A stretch of DNA of 30,233 nucleotides from the IMG/VR virus record IMGVR_UViG_3300044691_000117, positions 1 to 30,233 of that record; one strand, written 5' to 3'. This document shows positions 7,192 through 30,233 of the stretch, in pieces. Position numbers and translations under genes: made by a program. Each line of letters starts with the position of its first letter. Position 1 is the stretch's first letter. Below the pieces are notes generated by a model that saw only the letters and a list, made by a program, of their open reading frames with translations, was not told where the DNA came from and did not search any database. This DNA is from a virus.

Positions 7192-8203
7192 CGCAAGCTT
7201 GGCGATCAAAGAATTGATCGAACTCGGCGTTCGGCGCAAGCAGTTCATCAAGGCGTCGATCCGGGTATCCAATGCATCGGGCGCGCTGGTGCGTCGCGCG
7301 CTCGGCTGGCAGATGGATTTGCCGCCTGCCGAACTGACAAAGATCAACGCCAAAGCCGCTAAGATATTATCTGCGGAAGATCCTGCCGAGTTGCCGGCCG
7401 AACTGGAGGAAATCGCAACCATCCTCGCATCCGACATTGCGAGCAGCCGCGCCATGTGTGAGCCGGCAAAGAAACAGATAGCATCGATCGAACTCGCGAT
7501 GCGCAAACTTGCACGACAATTCGAGGTATGGAAATGGGCGAAGGAAGTCCGCGGCCTCAGCGATCTGGGATTAGCCGTTGTACTTGCGGAGGCTGGCGCG
7601 CTTGATAGGTATTCGGGCAAAAATGGTTATGGCAAGCTCTGGAAGCGCCTCGGCTTGGCGCCGATCACGAAAGACGGCCAGACGAAAGCCTGCTCGACGT
7701 GGCGCAAGAGCGGCGGCCTCACCTCGGAGGAATGGCAGGACACCGGACCGAACGGGCCGAAGTACGCGCCGAAACGTAGGGCCTCGATTTTCTCTCAGGT
7801 CGGCAACCCGATCATCGGCGGCATGGGCAAAGGCTATCGGCCGCTCGTCGGCGAGGACATCGAACAGAATCCGAAGCTGAGCTATTACGAAAAGGTCTTC
7901 GTGCATCGGCTTCGCTCCGAAGCCGCGCGCGACGATGAGATGAGGCGCCCTGACACCAAGGAAGGCAAGGAGAGCTTCTCGAAATACTGCGCGTTCCGAG
8001 CGCAGCGATATACCGAAAAACGCTTGCTGAAACATCTTTGGCAGGCGTGGCGGCGGGCCAGTGTCGACATGGCTGTAAAGCCCACCAACCATGTGCCCGC
8101 CGCAGAAATCACGCCGCAAGGCGTGGGGGAGGCCAGGCAAATGGTGCCCGCAAGGGCCATTTTAAAGCTGCCTCCCCACCAATTCAGGGATGCCGCCGAG
8201 TGA
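7160..8203 (+). CDS. IS110 transposase C-terminal-like (Transposase_20-like) phage protein
   Basis: The 347-aa product has GAGGAAA about seven bases before ATG 7160. Residues about 120-175 (VRGLSDLGLAVVLAEAGALD, then KLWKRLGLAPITKDG) resemble the helix-hairpin-helix part of IS110/IS116/IS902 transposases, where the usual pattern is I-P-G-I-G-x-x-T-A-x-x-L-x-A-E-x-G and L-A-A-Y-x-G-L-x-P. Downstream come basic helices (KRRASIFSQVGNPIIGG, then FVHRLRSEAARDDEM and KRLLKHLWQAWRR) like the IS110 tail. The N-terminal 110 residues do not show the DEDD RuvC-like nuclease of a full transposase. No inverted repeats or element ends were seen. It may be a tamed transposase fragment used for DNA binding or recombination. 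The homology claim rests on inspection. Confidence 0.6.
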   Translation: MPRKSKTISFDASLAIKELIELGVRRKQFIKASIRVSNASGALVRRALGWQMDLPPAELTKINAKAAKILSAEDPAELPAELEEIATILASDIASSRAMCEPAKKQIASIELAMRKLARQFEVWKWAKEVRGLSDLGLAVVLAEAGALDRYSGKNGYGKLWKRLGLAPITKDGQTKACSTWRKSGGLTSEEWQDTGPNGPKYAPKRRASIFSQVGNPIIGGMGKGYRPLVGEDIEQNPKLSYYEKVFVHRLRSEAARDDEMRRPDTKEGKESFSKYCAFRAQRYTEKRLLKHLWQAWRRASVDMAVKPTNHVPAAEITPQGVGEARQMVPARAILKLPPHQFRDAAE

Positions 8204-8211
8204 TCGGTGGC

Positions 8212-8268
8212 GGGTGTCGGCCATCCTACGCGCGCTCCAGAAGAGCCAAGATCAACCTGCCGACACCC
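8212..8268. promoter_or_regulatory. 9-bp inverted repeat in the gap after the IS110-like gene
   Basis: GGGTGTCGG at 8212-8220 and CCGACACCC at 8260-8268 form a perfect 9-bp inverted repeat with 39 bases between, in the 126-bp gap before the gene at 8330. There is no T-run after it, so a plain intrinsic terminator is unlikely. It may be a structured leader RNA or a protein-binding site. Confidence 0.35.
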
Positions 8269-8329
8269 ATTAAATTCGCTGGCCTCCCCGCGTAACAGGC
8301 GAAGGCATTAAGTCAGAGAGGTAACTGAA

Positions 8330-8800
8330 ATGCCAATCAACCGAAGAAAGCTTCTCACGCTATTTGGACTTGGCGCTGTCCTTGGTCCGAGCGCGGTGGC
8401 GCCGATCGCGGTCGCGAGTGGAGCGAAGACGCTTCCACCAAAGTGGGGCACCATTGATCTCGTGGTCGCCAGAGGTGCCGACGGCATTCCGACAATGCTC
8501 GGCAAGGGCGATTTCATTGTCTCTTCAGAGAGGCTCAAACGAGCTCGGTTTATTTTTCGGCTCGTTCGTAATGGGCTGACGCCTGAAGAGGCATCTGCCA
8601 CATATGAATCACTTGAGCGCTCCGGTCGTCTTGACGAAGTCGCTGAAATTCTTCGCCGGGAGCTTGAAGAAGCGGGTTGGAAAAAGGTCGCAGAATGGGA
8701 GGCTGCCGCGGCGGTCATCCCGGGAGAAATAACCGCAGACGACATATCTTGGGCGGAACGCGCTATCGCGGCGATTGAAGACGGCGAGGGCCGCCCATGA
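8330..8800 (+). CDS. Hypothetical protein with Tat-like N-terminal signal
   Basis: GAGAGG lies eight bases before ATG 8330. The 156-aa product starts M-P-I-N-R-R-K-L-L-T-L-F-G-L-G-A-V-L-G, a twin-arginine (RR) followed by a hydrophobic stretch and a possible A-x-A cleavage region near residue 30. This looks like a Tat signal or a membrane anchor. The mature part is mixed alpha-beta and ends in a helical acidic tail with repeated Glu-Glu pairs. I see no enzyme motif. It could be a secreted phage protein that changes the host envelope, or the RR stretch may be chance. Confidence 0.6.
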   Translation: MPINRRKLLTLFGLGAVLGPSAVAPIAVASGAKTLPPKWGTIDLVVARGADGIPTMLGKGDFIVSSERLKRARFIFRLVRNGLTPEEASATYESLERSGRLDEVAEILRRELEEAGWKKVAEWEAAAAVIPGEITADDISWAERAIAAIEDGEGRP

Positions 8801-8994
8801 CCAAGGACCCCACCCCGAGGGCCGACGCGCTCCGCGCCATGAGGGAGCAAAAATACGGCCACATCCAAGCCACGGCCTCACCTCCGAAGCGAAAACTGGT
8901 TCCGTTCGCCGGCAAAGATGATACCGGCCGCGGCCCGGACAAGTCTAAATCGCCAAGGAAGCGGCGCAAAATCGGGCGGAAAGGCGGGCCGTAG
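8797..8994 (+). CDS. Small basic hypothetical protein (65 aa)
   Basis: ATG 8797 overlaps the previous stop as ATGA. The 65-residue product is very basic, with a Lys/Arg-rich C-terminus (KSPRKRRKIGRKGGP) and likely disordered. It might bind nucleic acid, but no domain is recognised. Confidence 0.6.
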   Translation: MTKDPTPRADALRAMREQKYGHIQATASPPKRKLVPFAGKDDTGRGPDKSKSPRKRRKIGRKGGP

Positions 8995-9008
8995 GGAGTA
9001 ACACAAAA

Positions 9009-9731
9009 ATGGCTAGAGGAATGGGTCAGCATACTCGAGATGATCGACACGCCACAATTCGACAGATGGTTTCCGATGGGAAAACCTATTCGGACATAGG
9101 GGTTCATTTCGGGATCAGCCGCGAGCGCGTGAGGCAGATCGCCGAGAAAATCGGAGCCGCATCTGTCCGAAGATGGCACCGCAAAGAGTCAGCCGCTGTA
9201 AGGCTCAGGACCCTTCGCGACGCCAACAAAACGGCTTCGAAAACGGGTTTGACTTTGGCGCGTCTGAGGGAATTGCTGGAGTATGACCGTTTTACAGGAA
9301 GATGGTTCTGGCGAGGAGCGGCTTGTAAACGTGCCGGGACATTGGCCGGGACGCTGCATCAATTTGGTTATGTCCAAATCCGCGTTGATGGTAAATTATA
9401 CATGGCCCATGTGCTTGCGTGGTTTTATTCCTTCGAATGCTGGCCCAAAAATGAGATTGACCATGTGAACGGACGTCCGAGCGATAATCGTTTGAATAAT
9501 TTGCGCCAAGCCACCCCAATGCAAAATCAAGGAAATCGTCCGGCTTCAAAGAATAATACGAGTGGGTTTAAGGGAGTTTGGAAGAACGGCAACAGATGGG
9601 TTGCTGAGGTTGCTCACGTTCGGCTTGGATCTTTCAATACGCCGGAGGAGGCCGCAGCTAAGGTCGCCGAGGCTTCTAAAATCCGGTACGGTGAATTCGC
9701 CTGCTTGGCCCTTGACGCAAGGCAAAGGTAG
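9009..9731 (+). CDS. HNH homing endonuclease with AP2 DNA-binding domain
   Basis: The 240-aa product has three parts. Residues about 12-45 contain a sigma-region-4-like helix-turn-helix (YSDIGVHFGISRERVRQIAE). Residues about 110-170 carry an HNH nuclease core with EIDHVNGRPSDNRLNNLR starting at residue 149. Residues about 180-230 (F-K-G-V-W-K-N-G-N-R-W, then LGSFNTPEEAAAKVAEASK) match the AP2/integrase-type DNA-binding domain that pairs with HNH in phage homing endonucleases. Such genes cut target DNA in genomes lacking the element and spread by repair. The fused N-terminal HTH is less usual. The start at 9009 is clear but has only a weak ribosome site. Confidence 0.88.
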   Translation: MARGMGQHTRDDRHATIRQMVSDGKTYSDIGVHFGISRERVRQIAEKIGAASVRRWHRKESAAVRLRTLRDANKTASKTGLTLARLRELLEYDRFTGRWFWRGAACKRAGTLAGTLHQFGYVQIRVDGKLYMAHVLAWFYSFECWPKNEIDHVNGRPSDNRLNNLRQATPMQNQGNRPASKNNTSGFKGVWKNGNRWVAEVAHVRLGSFNTPEEAAAKVAEASKIRYGEFACLALDARQR

Positions 9732-14051: not shown

Positions 14052-14402
14052 ATGGCAACACCGATCACCCTCGACGACGTCGTCGCCGCAGTCGCGGCCG
14101 AAGACACCGTAATCAACTCCGCGATTGCTTTCATCGTCAGCGTGCCCGGCCTCGTGGCCACGGCGGCAGGCGCGGCTGGCATCGACCAGACCAAAGCCAC
14201 CGCACTTGTCACAGACCTGACCAGCCAGACCAGCGCCATCGCTGCCGCGCTGGTGACGGGGACACCTGCCGCCCCCGTGCCGGTCCCGCCTCCGACACCG
14301 ACTCCGGTGCCGCCGAGCCCGCCTCCCGTGCCAACTCCGGCCGTGGCAGCCAACGCCGCCGCAGCCGTGGCGGCGATGAAGAAGAAACTCGGCATCAAGT
14401 AG
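14052..14402 (+). CDS. Ala-rich protein with Pro-rich linker (116 aa)
   Basis: Residues 1-75 form an Ala/Val-rich helical region (ITLDDVVAAVAAEDTVINSA, then GIDQTKATALVTDLTSQTSA). Residues about 76-98 are a Pro-rich linker (PVPVPPPTPTPVPPSPPPVP), and the end is a short Ala/Lys helix. It resembles the first part of the next gene product, which also has a helical head and a Pro-rich linker, so the two may share a role, perhaps in the virion. No family is firmly recognised. Confidence 0.65.
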   Translation: MATPITLDDVVAAVAAEDTVINSAIAFIVSVPGLVATAAGAAGIDQTKATALVTDLTSQTSAIAAALVTGTPAAPVPVPPPTPTPVPPSPPPVPTPAVAANAAAAVAAMKKKLGIK

Positions 14403-14427: not shown

Positions 14428-15678
14428 ATGACGCAACATCGCAGGCTCCTCAACCACAACAGCAAAACCGTCACCGACCCTCTCGCCAGCCTATTGGCTG
14501 ACATACAGGGCCAGACGGGCAAGCTGCATGCGGCTGTCGAGTCTGCGACGGCGCCGCCAGCGGCGACCGATATCGCCACCAAGGTCGGGTCGATCCAAGG
14601 GACCGCCGACACCGTGAGCGCAGCAACCATGGCGATCACCAATGCGCTTGCGGCCATTTCCGCCGACGTTCAGGCTGACATCACGACCGAGATTGCTGCA
14701 CTGCGGCAGGGCGCGGCTACCCTGACCGCGGCCGCGGCGGATATCAGTACCGATGCTGACGCTATTGAGGCCGATGCGGCGACCATCGCGGCCCAAAAGG
14801 GCGCCCAAGCCTCACAACCGGCCCCACAGCCGGTTCCACCAATTCCGGCACCCATCCCCGCCCAGCCACAGCAACCGTCCCAGACGCCTCCCGTGGCCTC
14901 CAGCGGCATATCGTGGCCGAGCTTTACGGGTTCCGACCGGCTGGTCGGGGCGTCCAAGTCCGGCATGGTTGCCGTCTACGTCGATGCCGCGCTGGGCGCC
15001 GAGGCCACCCAGAACGCTGTGGATCTGCTGGCCGACGCCGACCGCATCGTCACCATGAACAATACGATCTTCGGCAAGACGCAAAAGACGCCGGTCAATG
15101 TCATCCTGTTCGCGATCGACGCCCAGACCGATGGCTCCGGTGGCGCCGATCACATGGGCTGCGACTGGAGCAGCGGGTCGGATATCGAGGTCTGCGTTTC
15201 CTATGGCGATAGCGCGCGCTGCTCCGGCCTGTTCATGGCCGAGTTGTGCGAATGCGCCATGAACAACAATCTGTGCGGGCTGTCGACCGGCGAGACATTG
15301 TCGCGCTGGTGCGCGGCGGTGGCCTCGAGCAACGCGCTGTCGGATTTTGCCACCGCGCCGACGTGGCAGCAGGATGGCCTGCAGAACTTCGTTGATGCTA
15401 CCGACCCGACTGATAACAACCCCGACTCCATCGGCTGCGGGATGGCGTTCCTCTCGTATCTGCTGCATCGCGGCGCGACCATGCCGCAGATCGCGCAAGC
15501 CATGGTCAAGCTGGGGGATGCAGGAACGCTGGCTGCGCTCTATGCGGCGCTGAAAATGGGCGACCGCGGGTTGGCGTGGCCGACGTTCGGCGCGGCCGTC
15601 AGCGCGTTGGGCAATATCACCGACGACGATCCATTCGCTCAGGTCGCGATGGCTATGCGCGCGCACGAGCATGTCTAG
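14428..15678 (+). CDS. Helical-head, Pro-linker, C-terminal globular protein (416 aa)
   Basis: AAGGAAGA precedes ATG 14428. Residues about 1-125 are Ala-rich and coiled-coil-like. Residues 128-155 are a Pro/Gln linker. Residues about 160-416 form a globular domain with GMVAVYVDAALGAEATQNA, DRIVTMNNTIFG, a short helix FMAELCECAMNN, then L-S-T-G-E-T-L-S-R-W and GCGMAFLSYLL. The arrangement recalls a widespread unnamed domain with E-L-x-E and S-x-G-E-x-L-S-R motifs that may be peptidase-like; this is from memory and not proven. A classic HExxH is absent. Its place before the LamG-like gene suggests a virion or host-surface role. Confidence 0.6.
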   Translation: MTQHRRLLNHNSKTVTDPLASLLADIQGQTGKLHAAVESATAPPAATDIATKVGSIQGTADTVSAATMAITNALAAISADVQADITTEIAALRQGAATLTAAAADISTDADAIEADAATIAAQKGAQASQPAPQPVPPIPAPIPAQPQQPSQTPPVASSGISWPSFTGSDRLVGASKSGMVAVYVDAALGAEATQNAVDLLADADRIVTMNNTIFGKTQKTPVNVILFAIDAQTDGSGGADHMGCDWSSGSDIEVCVSYGDSARCSGLFMAELCECAMNNNLCGLSTGETLSRWCAAVASSNALSDFATAPTWQQDGLQNFVDATDPTDNNPDSIGCGMAFLSYLLHRGATMPQIAQAMVKLGDAGTLAALYAALKMGDRGLAWPTFGAAVSALGNITDDDPFAQVAMAMRAHEHV

Positions 15679-16840
15679 CATCTTCGATCAGTTCTCGCTG
15701 CTCGACGATGCCCGCGCCAGGCGCCAGATCGAGGCCGCGCACGCCGCGCTGATCTTCGATCAGTGGTCGCACGATCCGGCCCGCGCCGAGCGGCAGATCG
15801 CGGCAGCACTCAATACGACATTTGACGCTGCCTATTGGCAGGACGACGTGCGCGCTCTTGCCGAGATCGACGCCGCGCTCTCGGGCGGCGGCGGCGGAAA
15901 CTATGTAGCGAAGGCGGTGCATCTAGACGGTGGCAGTTGCCTGTATTGTGGCAATCTATCCGTGTCACCGACGAACGATAAATTCACTTGTGTCTTCTTC
16001 GTCAACAATGCGACATTTAGCAACGGCGTTTTTCTAGCGGTAGATGAGTTGAACAGCCCCGCTCTTCAAGACATTTACTTTGACAGCGCGAAGGGCCTCT
16101 TGCCAGATATGGTCGATGCGACCGATCAGCTTGGGTTGATGTTCCAATCGGGACTGGCTCCGCTAACATCTCCGGGCTGGCACTCGGTTCTATTTAACTG
16201 CCAGACGAATTTTTCCGCAGGGAACAAGTTATTCCAACTGTATGTTGACGATGTCAGCGTTGGAACATTGGTCCAGGATGTGGACGCGGCCTTCGACATG
16301 CCATTCAATGGCTTGCCGATATACATCATGGGAAGCGGTCTTCAGGGCGATCTCATAGGAGATTTCAGTAATGTCTGGATCGCCCCAGGTCAGATCGTTG
16401 ATTTCAGCGTGACTGCCAATCGTCGAAAGTTCATCACTGCTGCGAACAAGCCGGTGAACTTAGGTGTTGACGGTTCTGCTCCGACCGGAGTGGCTCCGGC
16501 GATATTCTTCGCAGGTGACGACACGACGTTCGGCACGAACGCAGGGTCGGGGGGCTCGTTCAAGCTCGTGCAGTCGCTGTACACCGATGGCTCGGGAACT
16601 GGACGAAACGGTGCCGGACCTATTGCGGTTACGGGTGCGGTGGCTGGCAAGTCGGTTGCCACGGTGTGGAGCACGAGCGGTCCACACGGTCCACACGACA
16701 TCAGTGGCAGTTTCGAGTCGGTCATTTCCGTGAATGACCAGATTCAGCAGACGGCCAGCACCGATCTCTCCAGTGACTTTCTCGCTATTCAGATCGTGCA
16801 GGGCACCATGGCCAACGCCACCACAAGCCCGAGTGATTGA
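15671..16840 (+). CDS. LamG-like virion or adsorption protein with repeated N-terminus
   Basis: ATG 15671 overlaps the previous stop by 8 bases. The first 70 residues hold a three-fold degenerate repeat of about 23 residues, each with a D-x-A-R-A-x-x-Q-I-x-A-A-like core (ARARRQIEAAHAAL, then PARAERQIAAAL, then VRALAEIDAAL), followed by a Gly-rich hinge GGGGG. Residues about 80-250 look like a concanavalin A/LamG beta-sandwich (VHLDGGSCLYCGNLS, then FTCVFFVNNATF, LFQLYVDDVSVGTL). The C-terminus contains A-I-F-F-A-G-D-D-T-T-F and is Gly/Ser-rich. It probably binds sugar or forms part of the virion surface. It lies just upstream of the portal gene. Confidence 0.65.
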   Translation: MSSIFDQFSLLDDARARRQIEAAHAALIFDQWSHDPARAERQIAAALNTTFDAAYWQDDVRALAEIDAALSGGGGGNYVAKAVHLDGGSCLYCGNLSVSPTNDKFTCVFFVNNATFSNGVFLAVDELNSPALQDIYFDSAKGLLPDMVDATDQLGLMFQSGLAPLTSPGWHSVLFNCQTNFSAGNKLFQLYVDDVSVGTLVQDVDAAFDMPFNGLPIYIMGSGLQGDLIGDFSNVWIAPGQIVDFSVTANRRKFITAANKPVNLGVDGSAPTGVAPAIFFAGDDTTFGTNAGSGGSFKLVQSLYTDGSGTGRNGAGPIAVTGAVAGKSVATVWSTSGPHGPHDISGSFESVISVNDQIQQTASTDLSSDFLAIQIVQGTMANATTSPSD

Positions 16841-16850
16841 GGACTAGCCG

Positions 16851-18812
16851 ATGGCCCATCCCATTCGCTGGCTCGGCGATTCCTTGGTTAATTTCGTTAC
16901 AGGATTAGGAACACAAAAAGACCCGACCACAAATTCATTCTACCAGCTCAACCTCTTAAACCGCAACGATCTGGAGAACGCCTACCGCGGTGACTGGATC
17001 GCGCGCCGGGTGGTGGATGCGCCGGCGGAAGATGCGACGCGCGAGTGGCGCTCATGGCAGGCCAAACAGGCAGACATCGAGAAAATCGAGAACCTGGAGA
17101 AGAAGCACGACCTGCAGCGCAAGATGCGGCAGGCCATCGTGCGGGCTCGGCTGTACGGCGGCGCGGCGCTGGTGATGGGCGTCGAGAACGGCGAGATTTT
17201 TGAGCCGGTCGATCTCGACACGGTTGGTCTGAACGACCTGCGCTTTATCGCGGTGATGAACAAGTACGAGCTTTCCGCAGGCCCACGCATCTATGACGTC
17301 GAGAGCGAGTGGTACACCCGCCCGGAATACTATGCGGTGTCAACGCCGATCGAGGGTATGGACCTCGCACGGACACCGAACCTCGGCCAGGTGCAGGTGC
17401 ATCCGTCGCGCGTGATCGAGTTTTCGGGCAATGAGTTGCCTGACTGGCGCTTGGCCCCGCTCGGCGGCGGCTGGGGCGACAGCGTACTGCAGTCCATGGA
17501 CGAGATGCTCAAGGACTGGGGCCTGACCATCGGCGGCATCGCCAACATGGTCAACGACGGCAAGATGGATGTCGTGAAGATCCCGCAGCTTTCGGAGAAG
17601 CTGACCACCAGCAAGCATCTTGGTAAGCTGATCGAGCGCTTCACGCTCGCCAATCAGGCCAAGTCGTCGATCAATACGCTACTGCTCGACAAGGAAGAAG
17701 ACTGGGACCGAGTGCAGACCAATTTCAGCGGGCTGCCGAATTTGATCAACGCGCTGATGCCGATCATCGCGGGTGCGGGCGGCATCCCGGTATCGCGGCT
17801 GATGGGGCAGGCCCCCGGCAAGGGCCTCAGCCACGCCACGTCAGGCGGCGAGAGCGATCTGCGCAATTACTACGACGACGTGACATCGAAACAAAAGACG
17901 GTCTATTCGCCCGCCATGGCCACGCTGGATCAGGTCTTGGTGCGCTCGGCGCTCGGAAAATCCGATCCCTCGATCTATTACGACTGGACGCCGCTATACC
18001 AGCCCGACCCGAAGGAGTTGGCCGACATCGCCTTCGTCAAGGCGCAAGCGACCAACCTCGACGTGCAGATGGGCCTGATCAACGAGGATGCACTGCGCAA
18101 GGCCCGCGTCAATCAGCTGATCGAGGACGGCACCTATCCCGGCTTGGACGAAGCGATTGACGAGTTCGGCATGGAGCCGCCGCAGCCGACGCCGGAAGAG
18201 ATCGCCGCGCACGCCGCGCTAATGGGCAAGTCGCAGGTCGGGCCCGACGGCAAGCCGCTGCCGAAGGTGCAGAACTTGCCGGGCGAGCGGAAGGCGCTGC
18301 CTAAGCCGGATACGGCGATCACAAAGGATGCCGCGCCGCGCACCCTCTACGTTCGCCGTGATGTGCTGAACGCCGACGCCATCGTGAAGTGGGCCAAGGC
18401 GCAGGGCATCGCGACCACTTTGCCCACGAGTGATATGCACGTGACCGTGGCCTTCAGTCGCCAGCCTGTGGACTGGATGAGGGCGGAAGAGGTCTACGAC
18501 CGCGATGGTCAGCTGCTCGTGTCACCCAGCGGGGTGCGCATGGTTGAGCGCTTCGGTGATGCCAAGGACTGTGTCGTACTGCTGTTCAACTCTGGCGCAC
18601 TGTCGCGTCGCCATGATGCGCTTGCGGAGATTGGCGCGTCATGGGACTGGCCCGAGTACCAGCCACACGTGACGATCAGCTACAAGGTGCCGCAGGACTT
18701 GGATGTGACTAAGATCGAGCCGTATCGCGGCCCCATCGTGCTCGGACCCGAGATATTCGAGACGGTTAACGAGGATTGGAAATCGACGATCAAAGAGGAT
18801 GCGATGGCGTGA
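16851..18812 (+). CDS. Portal protein fused to Acb1-like anti-CBASS 2H phosphoesterase
   Basis: The 653-aa product has an N-terminal DUF1073-type portal domain (NRNDLENAYRGDWIARRVVD, then IVRARLYGGAALVMG and GIPVSRLMGQAPGKGLS). Residues about 505-645 form a second domain with two H-x-T motifs, HVTVAF (H530, T532) and HVTISY (H606, T608), the 2H phosphoesterase signature. This end (RTLYVRRDVLNADAIVKWAK) resembles Acb1, the phage enzyme that cuts cyclic oligonucleotides and blocks CBASS defence. The link between Acb1 and DUF1073 portals is established in family databases as I recall it. No internal start with a good ribosome site was seen before the second domain, so it probably stays joined to the portal. 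Confidence 0.9.
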   Translation: MAHPIRWLGDSLVNFVTGLGTQKDPTTNSFYQLNLLNRNDLENAYRGDWIARRVVDAPAEDATREWRSWQAKQADIEKIENLEKKHDLQRKMRQAIVRARLYGGAALVMGVENGEIFEPVDLDTVGLNDLRFIAVMNKYELSAGPRIYDVESEWYTRPEYYAVSTPIEGMDLARTPNLGQVQVHPSRVIEFSGNELPDWRLAPLGGGWGDSVLQSMDEMLKDWGLTIGGIANMVNDGKMDVVKIPQLSEKLTTSKHLGKLIERFTLANQAKSSINTLLLDKEEDWDRVQTNFSGLPNLINALMPIIAGAGGIPVSRLMGQAPGKGLSHATSGGESDLRNYYDDVTSKQKTVYSPAMATLDQVLVRSALGKSDPSIYYDWTPLYQPDPKELADIAFVKAQATNLDVQMGLINEDALRKARVNQLIEDGTYPGLDEAIDEFGMEPPQPTPEEIAAHAALMGKSQVGPDGKPLPKVQNLPGERKALPKPDTAITKDAAPRTLYVRRDVLNADAIVKWAKAQGIATTLPTSDMHVTVAFSRQPVDWMRAEEVYDRDGQLLVSPSGVRMVERFGDAKDCVVLLFNSGALSRRHDALAEIGASWDWPEYQPHVTISYKVPQDLDVTKIEPYRGPIVLGPEIFETVNEDWKSTIKEDAMA

Positions 18813-23265: not shown

Positions 23266-24228
23266 ATGCGTCTCAACATGTTCGATTCCCAGCAAGCGCT
23301 CGGGTTTCTGACTCAGCAGACCTCTTACATCGAGAAAGAGGTCTACAAGATCCAGTACCCCGAGATCATCTATCAGCAGCTGATCCCGATCGATACTTCG
23401 GCCAACGAGTGGGCCAAGTCCGTGACCTACTTCATCATGGACCGGGTGGGGCAGGCTGACTGGTTCGACGGCACCGCGACCGACATGCGGCTGGCCGACG
23501 TCAACCGCGACAAGCGCGAGCAGACTATCGAGATGGCCGGCATCGGCTATCGCTATACCCTTGAAGAACTCGGCCAGGCCATGATGATCCCCGGTCTCAA
23601 TCTGACCGCGGAACGTGCCGAGGCGGCGCGCTTTGCCTACGAGTCGTTCATGGACAAGATTGCCTATGTCGGCAACTCGTCCAAGAACTTCACCGGGCTG
23701 ATCAACAACGCCAACGTGACGCGGGTCAGCGCGATCGCGGATGGCACAGGTTCGTCGGCGCTGTGGTCAGCCAAGACCGCAGACCAGATGGTGCGGGACG
23801 TCCAGGGTGCTCTCACGGGCGTTTACGAGGGCTCCCTCACAGTCGAAATGGCGGACACCGTGCTCCTGCCGATCGATGCCATCAACACGCTGTCGATCTC
23901 GCGCGTTCCCAACACCATGGAGACTGCGCTGAGCTACCTGTCAAAGAACAACCTCTACACGTTCACCACCGGCGGACCTCTCACCATCCGCGGTGTGCTT
24001 GGCTTGGGGACCGCGGGCAGTGGCGGCGTTGGGCGGCTGGTCGCATACAAGAAAGACCCTCGGGTGCTCAAGATGCATATCCCGATGCCGCACAAGTTTC
24101 TGCCCGTTTGGCAGACCGGGCCGATCACGTTCGACATTCCTGGCATCTCCCGCACCGGCCCTGTCGAGATTCGCCGGCCCGGCGCGGTGCGCTATGTCGA
24201 CGGCATCACCGACGGCACCACGCCGTAA
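23266..24228 (+). CDS. Major capsid protein (DUF2184 type)
   Basis: The 320-aa product has the marks of DUF2184 major capsid proteins: YPEIIYQQLIPIDTSANEWA, MRLADVNRDKREQTIEMAGI, GYRYTLEELGQAM, and a C-terminal KMHIPMPHKFLPVWQTG. These proteins adopt the HK97 fold. AGAAGGAAA precedes ATG 23266. It follows the protease-scaffold and cement genes in the usual order. A terminator-like hairpin lies just after its stop, fitting high expression of this gene. Confidence 0.9.
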   Translation: MRLNMFDSQQALGFLTQQTSYIEKEVYKIQYPEIIYQQLIPIDTSANEWAKSVTYFIMDRVGQADWFDGTATDMRLADVNRDKREQTIEMAGIGYRYTLEELGQAMMIPGLNLTAERAEAARFAYESFMDKIAYVGNSSKNFTGLINNANVTRVSAIADGTGSSALWSAKTADQMVRDVQGALTGVYEGSLTVEMADTVLLPIDAINTLSISRVPNTMETALSYLSKNNLYTFTTGGPLTIRGVLGLGTAGSGGVGRLVAYKKDPRVLKMHIPMPHKFLPVWQTGPITFDIPGISRTGPVEIRRPGAVRYVDGITDGTTP

Positions 24229-24297: not shown

Positions 24298-24585
24298 TTG
24301 CGCTACGACATCCATAATCCGACGCCTGCGCGGCGCGTCATTCACGACGGCATCGAGGGCAGCCAGCGCCCGATCACGATCGAGGCCGGCGGGGATCGCA
24401 AGAACGTGGCGCTGAGCGATGCGGTGGCCAAAGACCTGATGGCGCGCGCCAAGGCGGCGAAGGACGCCGAGGTCGTGCTGACGCCATGCGAGAACAATCC
24501 GCCGGAGCCTGAGCAAAGACCTCTGGATCAGAATTCATCCGCTGGCATGCGGCCAGCGCCTCAACATCCAGGAAAGCGATCATGA
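24298..24585 (+). CDS. Small hypothetical protein after the capsid gene (95 aa)
   Basis: TTG 24298 follows GCAGGAGA, the start chosen since no ATG fits. The 95-residue product begins MRYDIHNPTPARRVIHDGIE, then KNVALSDAVAKDLMARAKAA, with a Pro-rich end. It overlaps the next gene as ATGA. A head-completion or tail role is likely by place only. Confidence 0.6.
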   Translation: MRYDIHNPTPARRVIHDGIEGSQRPITIEAGGDRKNVALSDAVAKDLMARAKAAKDAEVVLTPCENNPPEPEQRPLDQNSSAGMRPAPQHPGKRS

Positions 24586-25175
24586 CGATAGAAACAGTAA
24601 ATGCTGGCCACGCCGTCGATGCCTCTGTTGTTCGTAACTCCGGCATTAAGGAAGAATTGTCAGCCCACGGCACCTATACCGCTGAGTGCTACGGGCCGGA
24701 CGGCGAATTGAAATGGCGGGATACCATAGACAACGTGGTATGCACCGAGGGCAAGAACCTTGCATTTGATACCTTCCTCGCCGGCTCGGCTTATACTGTT
24801 ACAGGGCCTTATATGGGCCTGATCAGCTCGGTGTCGTACACGGCTGTGGCAGCGACCGACGTTGGCAGCCAGATTGATGGCACCAATGGTTGGAAGGAGG
24901 CCGGCGGCACCAATGCGCCGACTTACACCGGTGTCCGCAAGACCTGCGCATGGTCCGCAGCCTCCGCAGGGGCCAAGGCGCTGTCCTCTGCGCTCGCCTT
25001 CGCCATCACTGGCACCGGTACCATCAAGGGCAGTTTCGTGCTGTTCGGTTCTGCTGCCGTCACGACCAAGGACAACGCGGCTGGCACGCTATGGTCCGCC
25101 GGATTGTTCACCGGCGGCGACAAGACCGTGGCCAACGGCGACACAGTCAACGTGTCCTACTCCACGAGCATGTAG
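24582..25175 (+). CDS. Phage structural protein, likely tail or head surface (197 aa)
   Basis: ATG 24582 overlaps the previous stop. The 197-aa product has a mixed N-terminal part (GTYTAECYGPDGELKWRDTI) and a Gly/Ala/Thr-rich beta-type body (SYTAVAATDVGSQIDGTNGW, then ALAFAITGTGTIKGSFVLFG) that is common in phage virion proteins. No exact family is assigned. Confidence 0.65.
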   Translation: MTIETVNAGHAVDASVVRNSGIKEELSAHGTYTAECYGPDGELKWRDTIDNVVCTEGKNLAFDTFLAGSAYTVTGPYMGLISSVSYTAVAATDVGSQIDGTNGWKEAGGTNAPTYTGVRKTCAWSAASAGAKALSSALAFAITGTGTIKGSFVLFGSAAVTTKDNAAGTLWSAGLFTGGDKTVANGDTVNVSYSTSM

Positions 25176-25809: not shown

Positions 25810-27333
25810 ATGCCCCTCGGGGATCTCGGCTCGTCGGTCTTCGTCGCGGGGTTCCGTGGTCCACATCCGATGCTCGATATGTATGTTCCGTCGTCGAAGA
25901 TGGCGAAATATACCATCAGCGGGGTTACTCGTAATTCGGCCGGTGTCGCGCTTGCCGGCTGCGTTGTCGAAGTATTCGAGACAGCTTCTGGCCTATTGCG
26001 GGCCGTCACCACGTCGGACGGCGGCGGCAATTACAGCGTGGACATCACCAGTTCGGAGACTGGCCTCACTTTTTTCGTCAACGCCTATCTGAAAGGTGGC
26101 GGCGCGCCCGACCTTGCGGGGACTTCGGTTAATACCTTGATTGGAGGACCCACCATCGCTCCGCGTCTTTGGGCGTATGTAGGAGACAGTGTTACCGCCG
26201 GCACCGGGTCCACTGCCCCATTTGGTTTTCCGCAACTTGCTATTGAGCATGCCGGGACGCGAAACGTCTCGCTTTTGTCCACCACTAACGGCACCGGCGG
26301 CCTGACAATGGCGCAGGTCGCGAATAATATTCCAGCGTTTATCGCAGCGGGCGCAAAAGGCATCGTGATTCAGGGCGGCATAAATGATGCAGTTGCGAAT
26401 GGTAGTGCCGTCGGCGTATTTGCGGCTTCAGCGACTACAGCCATAGGGTACTGTACCGCTGCGGGTATTCCCTGCGTGATGATGACGACGACGCCGACTT
26501 ATGCAGGAACAACGGGCGGTATCAATACCAGTACCGTTCAGGGCCTAATCTGGCAATACGTGCAATGGGTGCAGAACAATGCTCCCGGCCTCGGCGCGAC
26601 CGTGGCTGACGCCTATACCGCTATCGTCGATACCCCAGGTCCAACTGGGCAGATGCAGGCGCAATACAGTAATACGGCAACCGGCGGCCTTGGCGATAGC
26701 GAGCATCCTGGGCCGCTCGGCCATTACGCCATCGGCGTCGTAGTCGGGGCAGCTCAGGTCGCTGCGATGGCGGGAATGTCTCAAGTCGTCAATTATGCGA
26801 CGCTAAACAATATGCATCCCAATGCCTTGAACGCCGGAAGCGGCAGTTTGCCCAATAGCTGCGCATATGCGAATTTTGGCGGAACGACGTCAACCACCTC
26901 GATCATTACAGACGTCAGCGGGTTCTTGCCGGCGGGCAAATGGGCGCAGGCTGATACGAACAACGTCAGCGGCTCTAACTCGCTGAACACCTTCCTGTAC
27001 GCGATGAACGGTTCCGACTGGACCGCTGGAGATGTGATCGCTTACGGCGGTTATTTCCAGATCGAGGATACGGTGGGCAATTACAAATCCGACCTATTCA
27101 ACAACCTTTCATATGTCAATGTCGGTCTTTTCTTCGACGGGGCGGAAATCAGCGGCATTTCGATATCGGGGCCAAGCACCGGGCCATCACTTCAAGTGTT
27201 TAAGATCGGAAGTGGTGGCGTCCTTCAAATGGGTCTGCAATACAGCTTGAAAACTGGCACCGACATCAAAATACGTATTGGCAACATGTACGTCTATAAC
27301 CTGACGAGGCTCGGGTTGCTTGGAATCGTGTAG
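25810..27333 (+). CDS. Virion protein with SGNH/GDSL hydrolase domain
   Basis: The 507-aa product has three parts. Residues about 30-90 resemble a carboxypeptidase regulatory-like beta-sandwich (YTISGVTRNSAGVALAGCVV, then G-G-G-N-Y-S-V-D-I). Residues about 120-310 form an SGNH hydrolase: G-D-S at 125-127 with catalytic Ser127, G-G-I-N-D with Asn192, and D-S-E-H-P with Asp296 and His299. The remainder is a beta-rich C-terminal domain. It likely removes acetyl or similar esters from host surface sugars at adsorption. The ribosome site at ATG 25810 is weak; coupling to the previous gene is likely. Confidence 0.85.
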   Translation: MPLGDLGSSVFVAGFRGPHPMLDMYVPSSKMAKYTISGVTRNSAGVALAGCVVEVFETASGLLRAVTTSDGGGNYSVDITSSETGLTFFVNAYLKGGGAPDLAGTSVNTLIGGPTIAPRLWAYVGDSVTAGTGSTAPFGFPQLAIEHAGTRNVSLLSTTNGTGGLTMAQVANNIPAFIAAGAKGIVIQGGINDAVANGSAVGVFAASATTAIGYCTAAGIPCVMMTTTPTYAGTTGGINTSTVQGLIWQYVQWVQNNAPGLGATVADAYTAIVDTPGPTGQMQAQYSNTATGGLGDSEHPGPLGHYAIGVVVGAAQVAAMAGMSQVVNYATLNNMHPNALNAGSGSLPNSCAYANFGGTTSTTSIITDVSGFLPAGKWAQADTNNVSGSNSLNTFLYAMNGSDWTAGDVIAYGGYFQIEDTVGNYKSDLFNNLSYVNVGLFFDGAEISGISISGPSTGPSLQVFKIGSGGVLQMGLQYSLKTGTDIKIRIGNMYVYNLTRLGLLGIV

Positions 27334-30233
27334 TGCCCGATATTTTTCTCTATCCGGGCCAAAAAGTCACCCGCGACATCATACTGCGCGCCCCGACTGC
27401 AGCCTTTGCGGCGGCTGCCGAGGCTGCCACCGCAGCTGATGCGCCTACCGAGACGATCGTAACTGCGGCGACCAATACCGAAGCCGCCAGCGCGATCGAC
27501 GCGCCGACCGAGGTCTTCGTCACCGCTGCGACCGGCACTGAGACCGCCACCGCCAGCGACGCTAGTTCCGACATTGCCACCTTCGCGGCAGCAACCGCTG
27601 TTGACGCTGCATCCTCACTGGACGCGCCGACCAACACCGCCATCATGGTGGTGACGAGTGCCGAGCCATGTGCTGGGGTCGATGCTCCATCGGCAGTCGC
27701 GAATGTTCTTGCGGCTGAGGCAGAGCCAGCCACGGCAACCGACTTGCCGAATGGCTCGGCCAACTACGCGCCAATTGCGGTTTCAGATGGCGCGTCCGCT
27801 GCCGATACGCCGTCAGAGGTTTTTGTAACTTCGGCGACGCTAACTGAAACCGCATCAGGTAACGATGTCGAGTCCGATATCGAGTCCGAGTTCGCGGCAG
27901 TTGCCGAACCTGCCACGGCCTCGGACATCCCATCGAACCTTGTAGCCTTTGCGGCGACTTCTGCCGAGGCTGGCTCGGCAATTGATAACGTCTCTGATCT
28001 CGAGACGGCAGCGGCCACCAGCCTTGAGACGGCGACGGCCGCAGACCTGCCAACCAGTGTCGCCAACGTGCTGGTCGCCTGCGCCGAGGCCGCCGCTGGC
28101 AACGATACCACGAGCGTGGTATTCACTACCGCCGCAGCGGTATCCGAGGCGGCATCTTCGACCGATACCGCATCGGAGGTCTTCACCACCGCCGCATCGG
28201 CCACCGACGCCAATGCGGCCACCGATACGCTATCCGACGTCGCCACGTTTGCGGCCACCACGGGCGAGACCGCAGCGAGTTCAGAAGCCTCCTCAGTCTC
28301 TGCCAACTTCGTCACATCTGACGCAGAGATAGCCACAGCAGCCGATCATCCGTCGGACGTTGCCACTATCCTTGCCGCAGTCGCCGATGTGGCTGCCGCT
28401 GCGTCCACCGTTGACGGGCCTGTCAATTACGCTGCGATATTCATCGCTGAAGCCGCGACAGCGACCGATACCATTGCGGACTTCGACGCGACCTTCGCAG
28501 CCGTTGCGGAAGCCGCAGCGGCGACCGATGTGGGCTCCGAGGTTTTTGTCACCGCTGCCTCGTCGTCCGAAACGGCGACGGCCATAGGCTCGGCGGATAC
28601 TATCGAGGCCTTCGCGGCCGCTGGATCTGAGGCCAGCAGTGCCATTGATGCCGTCTCCGACCTTGTCACGTTCGCAGCCGTCGGACTGGAGTCGAACGCC
28701 GCCTCCGACGCGGTCTCCAGCATTTCCGCGCTCGTTGCAGCCGAGACCGAGGCTGGCAGCGCCGCTGATGCACCGAATAATACGGCCACGCTGCTGGCCG
28801 CCAGTCTGGAGGCAACCTCAAGCTCTGACACGACGGTCGGCGTCGCCTCGGTTATTGCCTCCGGCAGCGATACCGGAACTGCGACCGAGATCGTATCCGA
28901 TGCCGCAGCCTTTGCCGCGACCGGCAGTGAGCCAGCATCCGCAACAGAGACCGTAAGCAATATCGCCGTCTTGGTTGCCGCTGAACAGGACGGCGCATCC
29001 TCGGCTGCCACCTCGGACGGGCCGACGAATTACGCCGCGATCTTCTCGGTGGAGACTGCCGCTGCGGCAGAGGTCATCGCCGGGGAGGCTGCGGAGTTCG
29101 CGGTCGATACAGACCAAGCCGTGGCGGCCGAGGCGATGTCGGCGTCTGCGGTATTAGCGGCAACGGTTGGCGAGCCAGCCTCGGCAGTTGATGCAACCGA
29201 CAGAGCTGAGACCTACGCTCTCAGCGAGGCCGACGCGGCTGCGGCCATTGAGACGGTCTCCGAGGTCTGGACTACTGCGGCAACGGTTGCCGATCCAGCG
29301 ACCGCAGCCGACAGCGTGGACCATACGACCGTCCTGTCTGCTAGTGCGGCTGAGGCTTCTACGGCTGCCGACGCGATAGATAATTCCGTGCTGTTCGCTG
29401 CGATGGCGATTGAGCCGGGATCATCGGCAGATGTCGGCTCGGCTTCGACTGCCATAGTCGCAGCACTGTCCGACTTGACGGTGGCAACAGACACGGTTTC
29501 CGAGACCGCAGTGCTGGCGGCTACCGGGACTGAGACTGCCGCAGCAACTGATATTCCAAGCAGCGTTGCCAACTACACTGGCATTTTGGTAGCCGAGCCG
29601 ATCGCGGCAAGCGACGCCCTGTCTGCTGCGGCAGTCGTCGCCACCTCCGATGCTGAGCCAACCTTGGCCAGCGACGTCGTTGCCGATATCGCCAGCGAGT
29701 TCGTCTCGACCGGCGAAGCAGTCTCGGCTTCAGACGTGGCGACCGCCGCCGCAACGCTAATCGTCACCGCTTCTGACGCCGTTTCGGCAGCAGACCATTC
29801 TACAACGATCTCTGGTGTCTCACTCTCCGTTGTCGAGCCATCGGCTGCGGTAGAAGCCTCAACGCCGGTCGTGACGTTCGGTGCAAGTGCTGCAGCAACG
29901 GCTGAGGCTGCCGACGTATCGTCTAATATCGCGATCCTCGGGGTCACTTCTAGCGAGGCAACGGTAGCCTCCGACGCCCAGACCGCTGCAGCCAATTACG
30001 CCGCGAGCCATCAGACGGAGGTAATGGCGGCAGACGACGTCGTCAGCGCCACATTTGCCTCGCTGGCCTCGATCATAGAGGCGGTAGCAGCTTCTGATAT
30101 CGTCGTAGCAACGGGCATAACATGCCAGCAGAGCGATGCAGTTGTCGCCACCGCCAGCGTGGACGCCAGCGTAACACACTTCGCTGCTGTGATGGAGACA
30201 GTGGCGGCTAGCGACATAATCATATCAGCTGGC
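27333..30233 (+). CDS. Giant Ala-rich 20-residue repeat protein, 3' end beyond window
   Basis: GTG 27333 overlaps the last base of the previous stop (TAGTG) and the frame stays open for 967 codons to the right edge. The first residues (MPDIFLYPGQKVTRDIILRA) match a head that I recall from phage and Rhizobiales proteins as I-F-L-Y-P-G-E. From about residue 30, about 47 units of a 20-residue repeat follow, with a core like E-x-A-T-A-x-D-x-x-S-x-V-A-T-F-A-A. After the first residues there is one Arg and no Lys, so the product is very acidic. It may be a tail or surface fibre or a long spacer; the function is unknown. ATG-only gene finders would miss it, and the - strand frames over it are shadows. 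Confidence 0.85.
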   Translation, partial: MPDIFLYPGQKVTRDIILRAPTAAFAAAAEAATAADAPTETIVTAATNTEAASAIDAPTEVFVTAATGTETATASDASSDIATFAAATAVDAASSLDAPTNTAIMVVTSAEPCAGVDAPSAVANVLAAEAEPATATDLPNGSANYAPIAVSDGASAADTPSEVFVTSATLTETASGNDVESDIESEFAAVAEPATASDIPSNLVAFAATSAEAGSAIDNVSDLETAAATSLETATAADLPTSVANVLVACAEAAAGNDTTSVVFTTAAAVSEAASSTDTASEVFTTAASATDANAATDTLSDVATFAATTGETAASSEASSVSANFVTSDAEIATAADHPSDVATILAAVADVAAAASTVDGPVNYAAIFIAEAATATDTIADFDATFAAVAEAAAATDVGSEVFVTAASSSETATAIGSADTIEAFAAAGSEASSAIDAVSDLVTFAAVGLESNAASDAVSSISALVAAETEAGSAADAPNNTATLLAASLEATSSSDTTVGVASVIASGSDTGTATEIVSDAAAFAATGSEPASATETVSNIAVLVAAEQDGASSAATSDGPTNYAAIFSVETAAAAEVIAGEAAEFAVDTDQAVAAEAMSASAVLAATVGEPASAVDATDRAETYALSEADAAAAIETVSEVWTTAATVADPATAADSVDHTTVLSASAAEASTAADAIDNSVLFAAMAIEPGSSADVGSASTAIVAALSDLTVATDTVSETAVLAATGTETAAATDIPSSVANYTGILVAEPIAASDALSAAAVVATSDAEPTLASDVVADIASEFVSTGEAVSASDVATAAATLIVTASDAVSAADHSTTISGVSLSVVEPSAAVEASTPVVTFGASAAATAEAADVSSNIAILGVTSSEATVASDAQTAAANYAASHQTEVMAADDVVSATFASLASIIEAVAASDIVVATGITCQQSDAVVATASVDASVTHFAAVMETVAASDIIISAG
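27420..30233 (+). repeat. About 47 tandem 60-bp (20-codon) coding repeats
   Basis: The repeat period stays near 60 bases from 27420 to the window edge, with only a few units of 19, 21 or 22 codons. DNA units have diverged strongly while the amino-acid pattern is kept, which suggests old duplication under selection for the protein shape rather than recent slippage. Confidence 0.8.

Follow-up and report, generated by a model that had tools for sequence, protein, structure and literature searches.

RESULTS

Gene content at the right end of the record

The window, that is, the whole stretch of DNA analyzed here, comprises all 30,233 bases of an IMG/VR virus record. Its right end is occupied by a gene for a highly repetitive protein, preceded by three further genes that we treat with it as a cassette; all four (starts at 24582, 25266, 25810, and 27333) come after the major head protein gene (Table 1). 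The gene directly upstream of the repeat gene, hereafter called the partner gene, matches Lipase_GDSL_2 in Pfam (4e-10) and, below threshold, CarboxypepD_reg (0.01). The products of the two genes before it have no significant family match in Pfam or PHROGs. The 180-residue protein among these is nearly trypsin silent (11% coverage by peptides of 7 to 35 residues) and has homologues in several unrelated phages. Upstream of the portal gene, we also observed a short ORF rich in Ala and Pro (14052-14402), which includes a PVPVPPPTPTPVPPSPPPVPTP linker, and, immediately before the portal gene, a 389-residue ORF (15671-16840) that has no match in PHROGs, has a low tryptic coverage of 33%, and may encode another surface protein.

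Table 1. Features of the window discussed in the text
Feature	Coordinates	Strand	Evidence or remarks
Portal protein (context)	16851..18812	+	phrog_146, 3e-127
Major head protein (context)	23266..24228	+	phrog_264, 2e-86
Further cassette-associated protein	24582..25175	+	Homologues upstream in L036, L037, L048
Conserved cassette protein, ~180-190 aa	25266..25808	+	Homologues before partner gene in L021, L033, L045, L057, L067, L071
Partner gene: CarboxypepD_reg-like domain ending PDLAGTSVNTL, then SGNH hydrolase	25810..27333	+	Pfam
Conserved adaptor-like domain of partner gene, residues ~32-112	25903..26145	+	tblastn, mostly 35-57% identity, nearly all loci
SGNH/GDSL hydrolase domain, residues 124-305	26179..26724	+	Pfam Lipase_GDSL_2
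Repeat protein gene (putative rod)	27333..30233	+	967 codons from a GTG, stop-free up to the contig end; C terminus beyond record
N-terminal bipartite motif MPDIFLYPGQKVTRDIILRAPT, putative docking peptide	27333..27398	+	Start shared with L001 and with 36 or more of 42 nonredundant loci
Tandem 20-residue repeats	27402..30233	+	43 units by segmentation (residues 24-888), then ~4 degraded ones up to the record end

A long acidic protein built of diverged 20-residue units

The initial annotation had described an open, GTG-started + strand frame composed of 20-residue units and almost devoid of Arg and Lys, and each of these points was borne out. The frame is free of stops over its 967 codons up to the end of the record. 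Unit-level segmentation (EM/DP) of its product yields 43 units, with 37 of the 42 spacings being exactly 20 residues and the other 5 being 21; approximately 47 units can be counted by eye. The segmentation score is 816, compared with 177 ± 14 (maximum, 216) in 20 shuffles, and the amino acid identity at lag 20 is 0.27 versus an expected 0.14. The unit consensus, (F/T/L)-A-A-T-x-A-E-(A/P)-A-(S/T)-A-x-D-x-(P/V)-S-(D/E)-(V/I)-A-T, agrees with the core proposed initially. E7 and D13, together with the hydrophobic columns 1 to 3 and 18 and 19, are retained across strongly diverged units, and Pro is found at positions 8 and 15 in about one-quarter of them. The protein is rich in Ala (29%), Ser, Thr, and Gly and contains 133 acidic residues versus 4 basic ones (K11, R14, R19, and R624), so that residues 20 to 967 include a single Arg and no Lys.

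At the DNA level, a single 27-base array was all that Tandem Repeats Finder reported within the ORF, indicating that the repeats are old or diverged and ruling out a recent tandem duplication as their origin. Since the units have diverged so far in DNA, it is selection on the protein that maintains the 20-residue period.

The frame is a real phage gene

Several antisense ORFs, of up to 194 residues, overlap the frame, which raises the question of whether it could be a chance product or an artifact of composition, such as a high-GC antisense effect. The frequencies at which codon positions 1, 2, and 3 are common to the repeat units are 0.48, 0.55, and 0.31, versus 0.39, 0.36, and 0.28 expected; the units thus agree at the first two positions and hardly at the third. 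The codon score of the frame (0.22 bits per codon) lies inside the range of the other genes of the window, with which its synonymous codon usage correlates at 0.83. Together, these results settle the frame and the strand and rule out antisense coding at 27333-30233. Shuffles of the frame contained a mean of 10.7 stops when position was preserved (minimum, 4) and 26 when fully randomized. The GTG start is supported because its Met aligns with the ATG start of a 216-residue ORF in another viral contig (L001) and because the GTG overlaps the TAG stop of the upstream gene. This overlap suggests that the two genes may be translationally coupled. The frame is therefore a real coding gene of the phage, the likelihood of a chance frame being negligible in light of the codon-position conservation, codon usage, homologous start, and shuffles. 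To call it hidden for want of an ATG, as was done initially, is an overstatement, as bacterial gene callers accept GTG starts.

An N-terminal motif and a partner domain recur together

The first 22 residues of the window protein, MPDIFLYPGQ-x4-DIILRAPT, are 64% identical to the start of the L001 protein (E = 2e-6) and match the regular expression used here to define a family, which we name the xDIFLYxGE...DVxLxDPT repeat-rod family. Two scans with this motif and one with PDVAGT(S/T)VNTL, the end of the upstream domain, gathered approximately 70 contigs. In at least 36 of the 42 nonredundant metagenomic phage loci, the gene right after the PDVAGT gene starts with the bipartite motif; L008 and L029 carry recognizable variants that the regular expression missed. 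The motif gene usually lies between -4 and +15 nucleotides from the stop of the partner gene. The link is reciprocal, with all of the loci found by the motif alone (L001 to L007) having the PDVAGT domain upstream, and the motif test selected only 2 of the 439 remaining ORFs on these contigs, both of which are further family members. The window itself combines the N-terminal motif at the start of the gene, the PDLAGTSVNTL partner gene upstream, and a period of 20. The pair is not always adjacent: in L031 and L062, at least one other gene comes between the partner gene and the motif gene, which lies downstream. In L008 (8899-9933; UOF80510 of ctkAd229), the motif occurs twice in tandem, as LYQGDGTPKDIVLRELP and LYAGDATPKDVVLRDPT, and the C-terminal third of the protein is strongly charged and helical looking.

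The partner domain also carries variable cargo, an SGNH hydrolase in the window and a DUF2341-LamG combination in L018. In many loci, the whole partner gene encodes only about 110 to 150 residues, leaving no room for a cargo domain.

Repeat bodies change while the period is kept

The L001 gene has a window-like N terminus, a period of 20, and the same upstream domain, but its repeats are different (QSLAVAQ...), implying that the repeat sequence is not the important feature. Between families, the repeat bodies lose sequence similarity, and most members have a period of 20, 21, or 22 residues; a few have 18 or 23 to 24 or show no clear period. Examples of units are ALTKTLDDATLSSTATAAISA (L018), GTLATTLGDLTLAAAGTETFT (L019), ALSVTEANDSITGAASVSVSA (L025), and ASLADSVAAADALTAAQTFL (L049). 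The L049 unit resembles that of the window by eye, with only a weak BLASTP match (E = 0.02, one pair), and profile comparison detected no sequence homology of the window repeats with those of L018 or L029. The repeat sequences are interchangeable, with the period staying near 20 to 22 residues. In L065, the repeats after the motif are replaced by a LamG lectin domain (PF13385, 2e-8). An acidic, Leu-rich C-terminal tail, such as EDEDEAILLLMAA, is present in 19 of the 36 complete members; the window record ends inside the repeats. The complete members found here reach at most 665 residues, and the window member is the longest at 967 codons even though it is incomplete.

The profile search proposed initially returned no family for the whole window ORF in Pfam, PHROGs, or NCBIfam. 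The ORF likewise had no match among PDB sequences up to an E value of 1, and hence none to a solved fiber, and none in 50,697 phage records, in which the family as such is represented by one match, a gene without annotation in a metagenomic genome. Two pattern scans with the N-terminal motif across 84,980 bacterial and archaeal species genomes gave no match, with variants of other spacing escaping such patterns; a plasmid match (H2) was discarded as a chance frame containing stops. Searches of open-licence papers yielded no description of the family and no experiment on a member. The repeat-rod family is thus apparently undescribed so far. Its longest member found is the window gene.

The cassette usually lies among head genes of unrelated phages

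In the P22-like locus L052, the cassette sits between the portal and scaffold genes, as it does in ctkAd229 according to its annotation; in L028, L045, and L027, it lies between the portal and the head protease. It is near tail genes in three loci (L025, L002, and L037). The adjoining portals belong to eight unrelated PHROGs (146, 156, 1216, 12082, 21, 12, 113, and 145), and within the parts analyzed, gene sharing between the window and the fetched metagenomic contigs is detectable only for the cassette and, in a few contigs, for the terminase. The cassette therefore behaves as a mobile unit of the head region. Rhizobium phage RHEph04 (L074) is a cultured phage whose head module is related. 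It encodes a protein annotated as a lysophospholipase L1-like esterase (gp13; 7946-9592) inside the head genes, after head morphogenesis genes on one side and protease genes on the other, and we saw no repeat gene at that locus.

Structure prediction

AlphaFold modeling of eight window repeats, with the other repeats as alignment rows, gave low-confidence helices (pLDDT 38.7) that are uninterpretable. For L018, modeled with 23 family sequences, the first repeats form regular β-structure, with much of residues 31 to 130 mostly at a pLDDT of 77 to 89 and strands of nine and four residues in each 21-residue unit. The model resembles pentapeptide-repeat solenoids (Z of about 10), a model class prone to an AlphaFold 2 artifact; Foldseek, including viral and PDB fold searches, found no match below 0.001. 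A similarity to a Bcep22 virion-associated protein was not significant (E = 1.6) and was dropped. Since AlphaFold 2 has been reported to yield confident but unrealistic β-solenoids for repeat sequences (PMC11795689), we take the L018 solenoid as a lead only.

DISCUSSION

The gene at 27333 probably encodes the shaft of a virion-surface rod that is docked by its N-terminal peptide, most plausibly on the head; we infer both the location and the fold. The arrangement of a conserved N terminus followed by a variable repeat shaft is that of docked fibers, and together with the lectin and hydrolase cargo, it favors a virion rod. These alternative cargo domains also suggest a place on the particle surface and an involvement of glycans. 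Moreover, the motif occurs with either repeats or LamG and the partner domain with either SGNH or LamG, as would be typical of docking modules bearing exchangeable surface cargo. The initial annotation, which had read the gene as a regular acidic rod or fiber beside an SGNH virion enzyme, thus stands as regards the long acidic repeat protein, its SGNH neighbor, and the block of virion genes, and the relatives favor a surface rod or fiber; the setting is, however, mostly one of head genes and not of tail genes. What it did not foresee is the 22-residue docking motif, the conserved upstream domain bearing the SGNH hydrolase, and the exchange of repeats at a kept period.

A position on the head is favored over one on the tail. 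SGNH domains are common on tail fibers and tailspikes, and tail or tail-fiber genes adjoin the cassette in the three loci mentioned above, so that an ordinary side or tail fiber whose gene lies near head genes by happenstance deserves consideration. We regard this as unlikely: most of the examined loci place the cassette between the portal and the scaffold, protease, or major head protein, where tail-fiber genes are rare, and the repeat protein has no PHROG tail-fiber match. Its location between portal and scaffold in the P22-like L052 and L008, along with the acidic, Leu-rich tail of about half of the complete members, could instead suit a protein that acts inside the particle or in its assembly, as a scaffold-like or ejected component, and is not exposed. 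Yet L052 and L008 possess a separate scaffold gene, and the use of lectin and hydrolase domains as other cargo is in keeping with a protein exposed at the surface, making such a role very improbable.

Whether a surface protein of this composition would fold is a further question. The abundance of Ala, Ser, Thr, and Gly, the near lack of basic residues, and the low pLDDT of the window repeats are all compatible with a protein that is mostly disordered and forms a flexible acidic spacer or brush on the virion. This is quite improbable given the strict 20-residue period and the retention of E7, D13, and the hydrophobic columns, which argue for a packed structure, and given that the period persists across families. 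As to the type of fold, the high Ala content, the low-confidence helices of the window model, and a hydrophobic periodicity that peaks near 110°, which does not favor extended strands, would agree with an α-helical repeat fiber like the φ29 head fiber instead of a β-structured rod. We find the helical alternative rather unlikely, as the sole model with repeats above a pLDDT of 70 (L018) is β there and Pro recurs at unit positions 8 and 15; hydrophobicity by itself does not decide between helix and strand.

For the virion-surface rod, a possible sequence of events can be outlined. Docking on the particle would be through the first ~22 residues, with the capsid or the products of the genes immediately upstream as the most likely sites. 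By stacking, the repeats would build a stiff and strongly acidic shaft of great length that projects from the virion and resists trypsin, with the C terminus, beyond the end of the record, bearing a tip or a second anchor. Rod and partner SGNH hydrolase might display binding and polysaccharide-modifying (probably deacylating) functions, thereby capturing the phage near the host surface or orienting it there. As the cassette is swapped between phages, the repeat sequence may drift or be replaced, whereas the period, and presumably the geometry, would be kept. On a broader scale, we speculate, at somewhat less than even confidence, that a mobile head-display cassette has spread to at least eight unrelated portal types, combining one docking peptide of ~22 residues with interchangeable rods or a lectin at a fixed period of 20 to 22, and that it was overlooked due to the lack of trypsin sites in its rods and their occurrence in uncultivated phages.

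In silico digestion of the window protein with trypsin leaves one usable peptide, MPDIFLYPGQK, or about 1% coverage. Tryptic coverage is below 20% for about one-third of the nonredundant relatives tested, compared with typically 70 to 85% for larger noncassette genes. Such rods would therefore escape standard proteomics, and the mass spectrometry of virions suggested by the initial annotation needs another protease. If our reading is true, a widespread class of phage surface rods is unnamed and has no Pfam, PHROGs, or NCBIfam model, with many members being almost invisible to tryptic proteomics. A short docking peptide portable across unrelated capsids could then serve as a handle for protein display on phages, and the constancy of the period with free sequence would amount to a natural experiment on the folding requirements of repeat rods.

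Known capsid appendages offer parallels. Fibers of the adenovirus type are trimers with a triple β-spiral shaft and a conserved N-terminal tail that binds the vertex. The adenovirus fiber consists of an N-terminal penton-binding tail, a repeat shaft, and a knob (PMC12796354); as in the family, a short and conserved N-terminal tail leads into a shaft made of short repeats, but there is no sequence relation, and the family has a period of 20 to 22 and a very different composition. The CP-δ head fiber of Orsay virus is a capsid fiber with a shaft of short β repeats, or β-bracelet (PMC7565637), similar in layout to the putative rod described here. Unlike the latter, it is pentameric, with five-residue strands and three-residue loops, an N-terminal coiled coil, and a covalent capsid link, and it has no sequence relation to the window protein. 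Both are analogues by layout and not relatives. Among phages, head appendages such as the φ29 head fiber gp8.5 and the 7-7-1 capsid fibers are thought to help early host contact (PMC7602432, PMC12796354); gp8.5 is α-helical. Against the cultured phages within the 50,697 records, the window protein has no sequence match. A further counterpart is UOF80510 of Caudoviricetes sp. ctkAd229 (MW202691), a 344-residue protein of a P22-like phage that is annotated as hypothetical and whose repeat sequence is unrelated to that of the window. It nevertheless occupies the same position after the partner gene and has the N-terminal motif, in two copies, repeats of approximately 20 residues, and the acidic, Leu-rich C terminus seen in about half of the complete family members.
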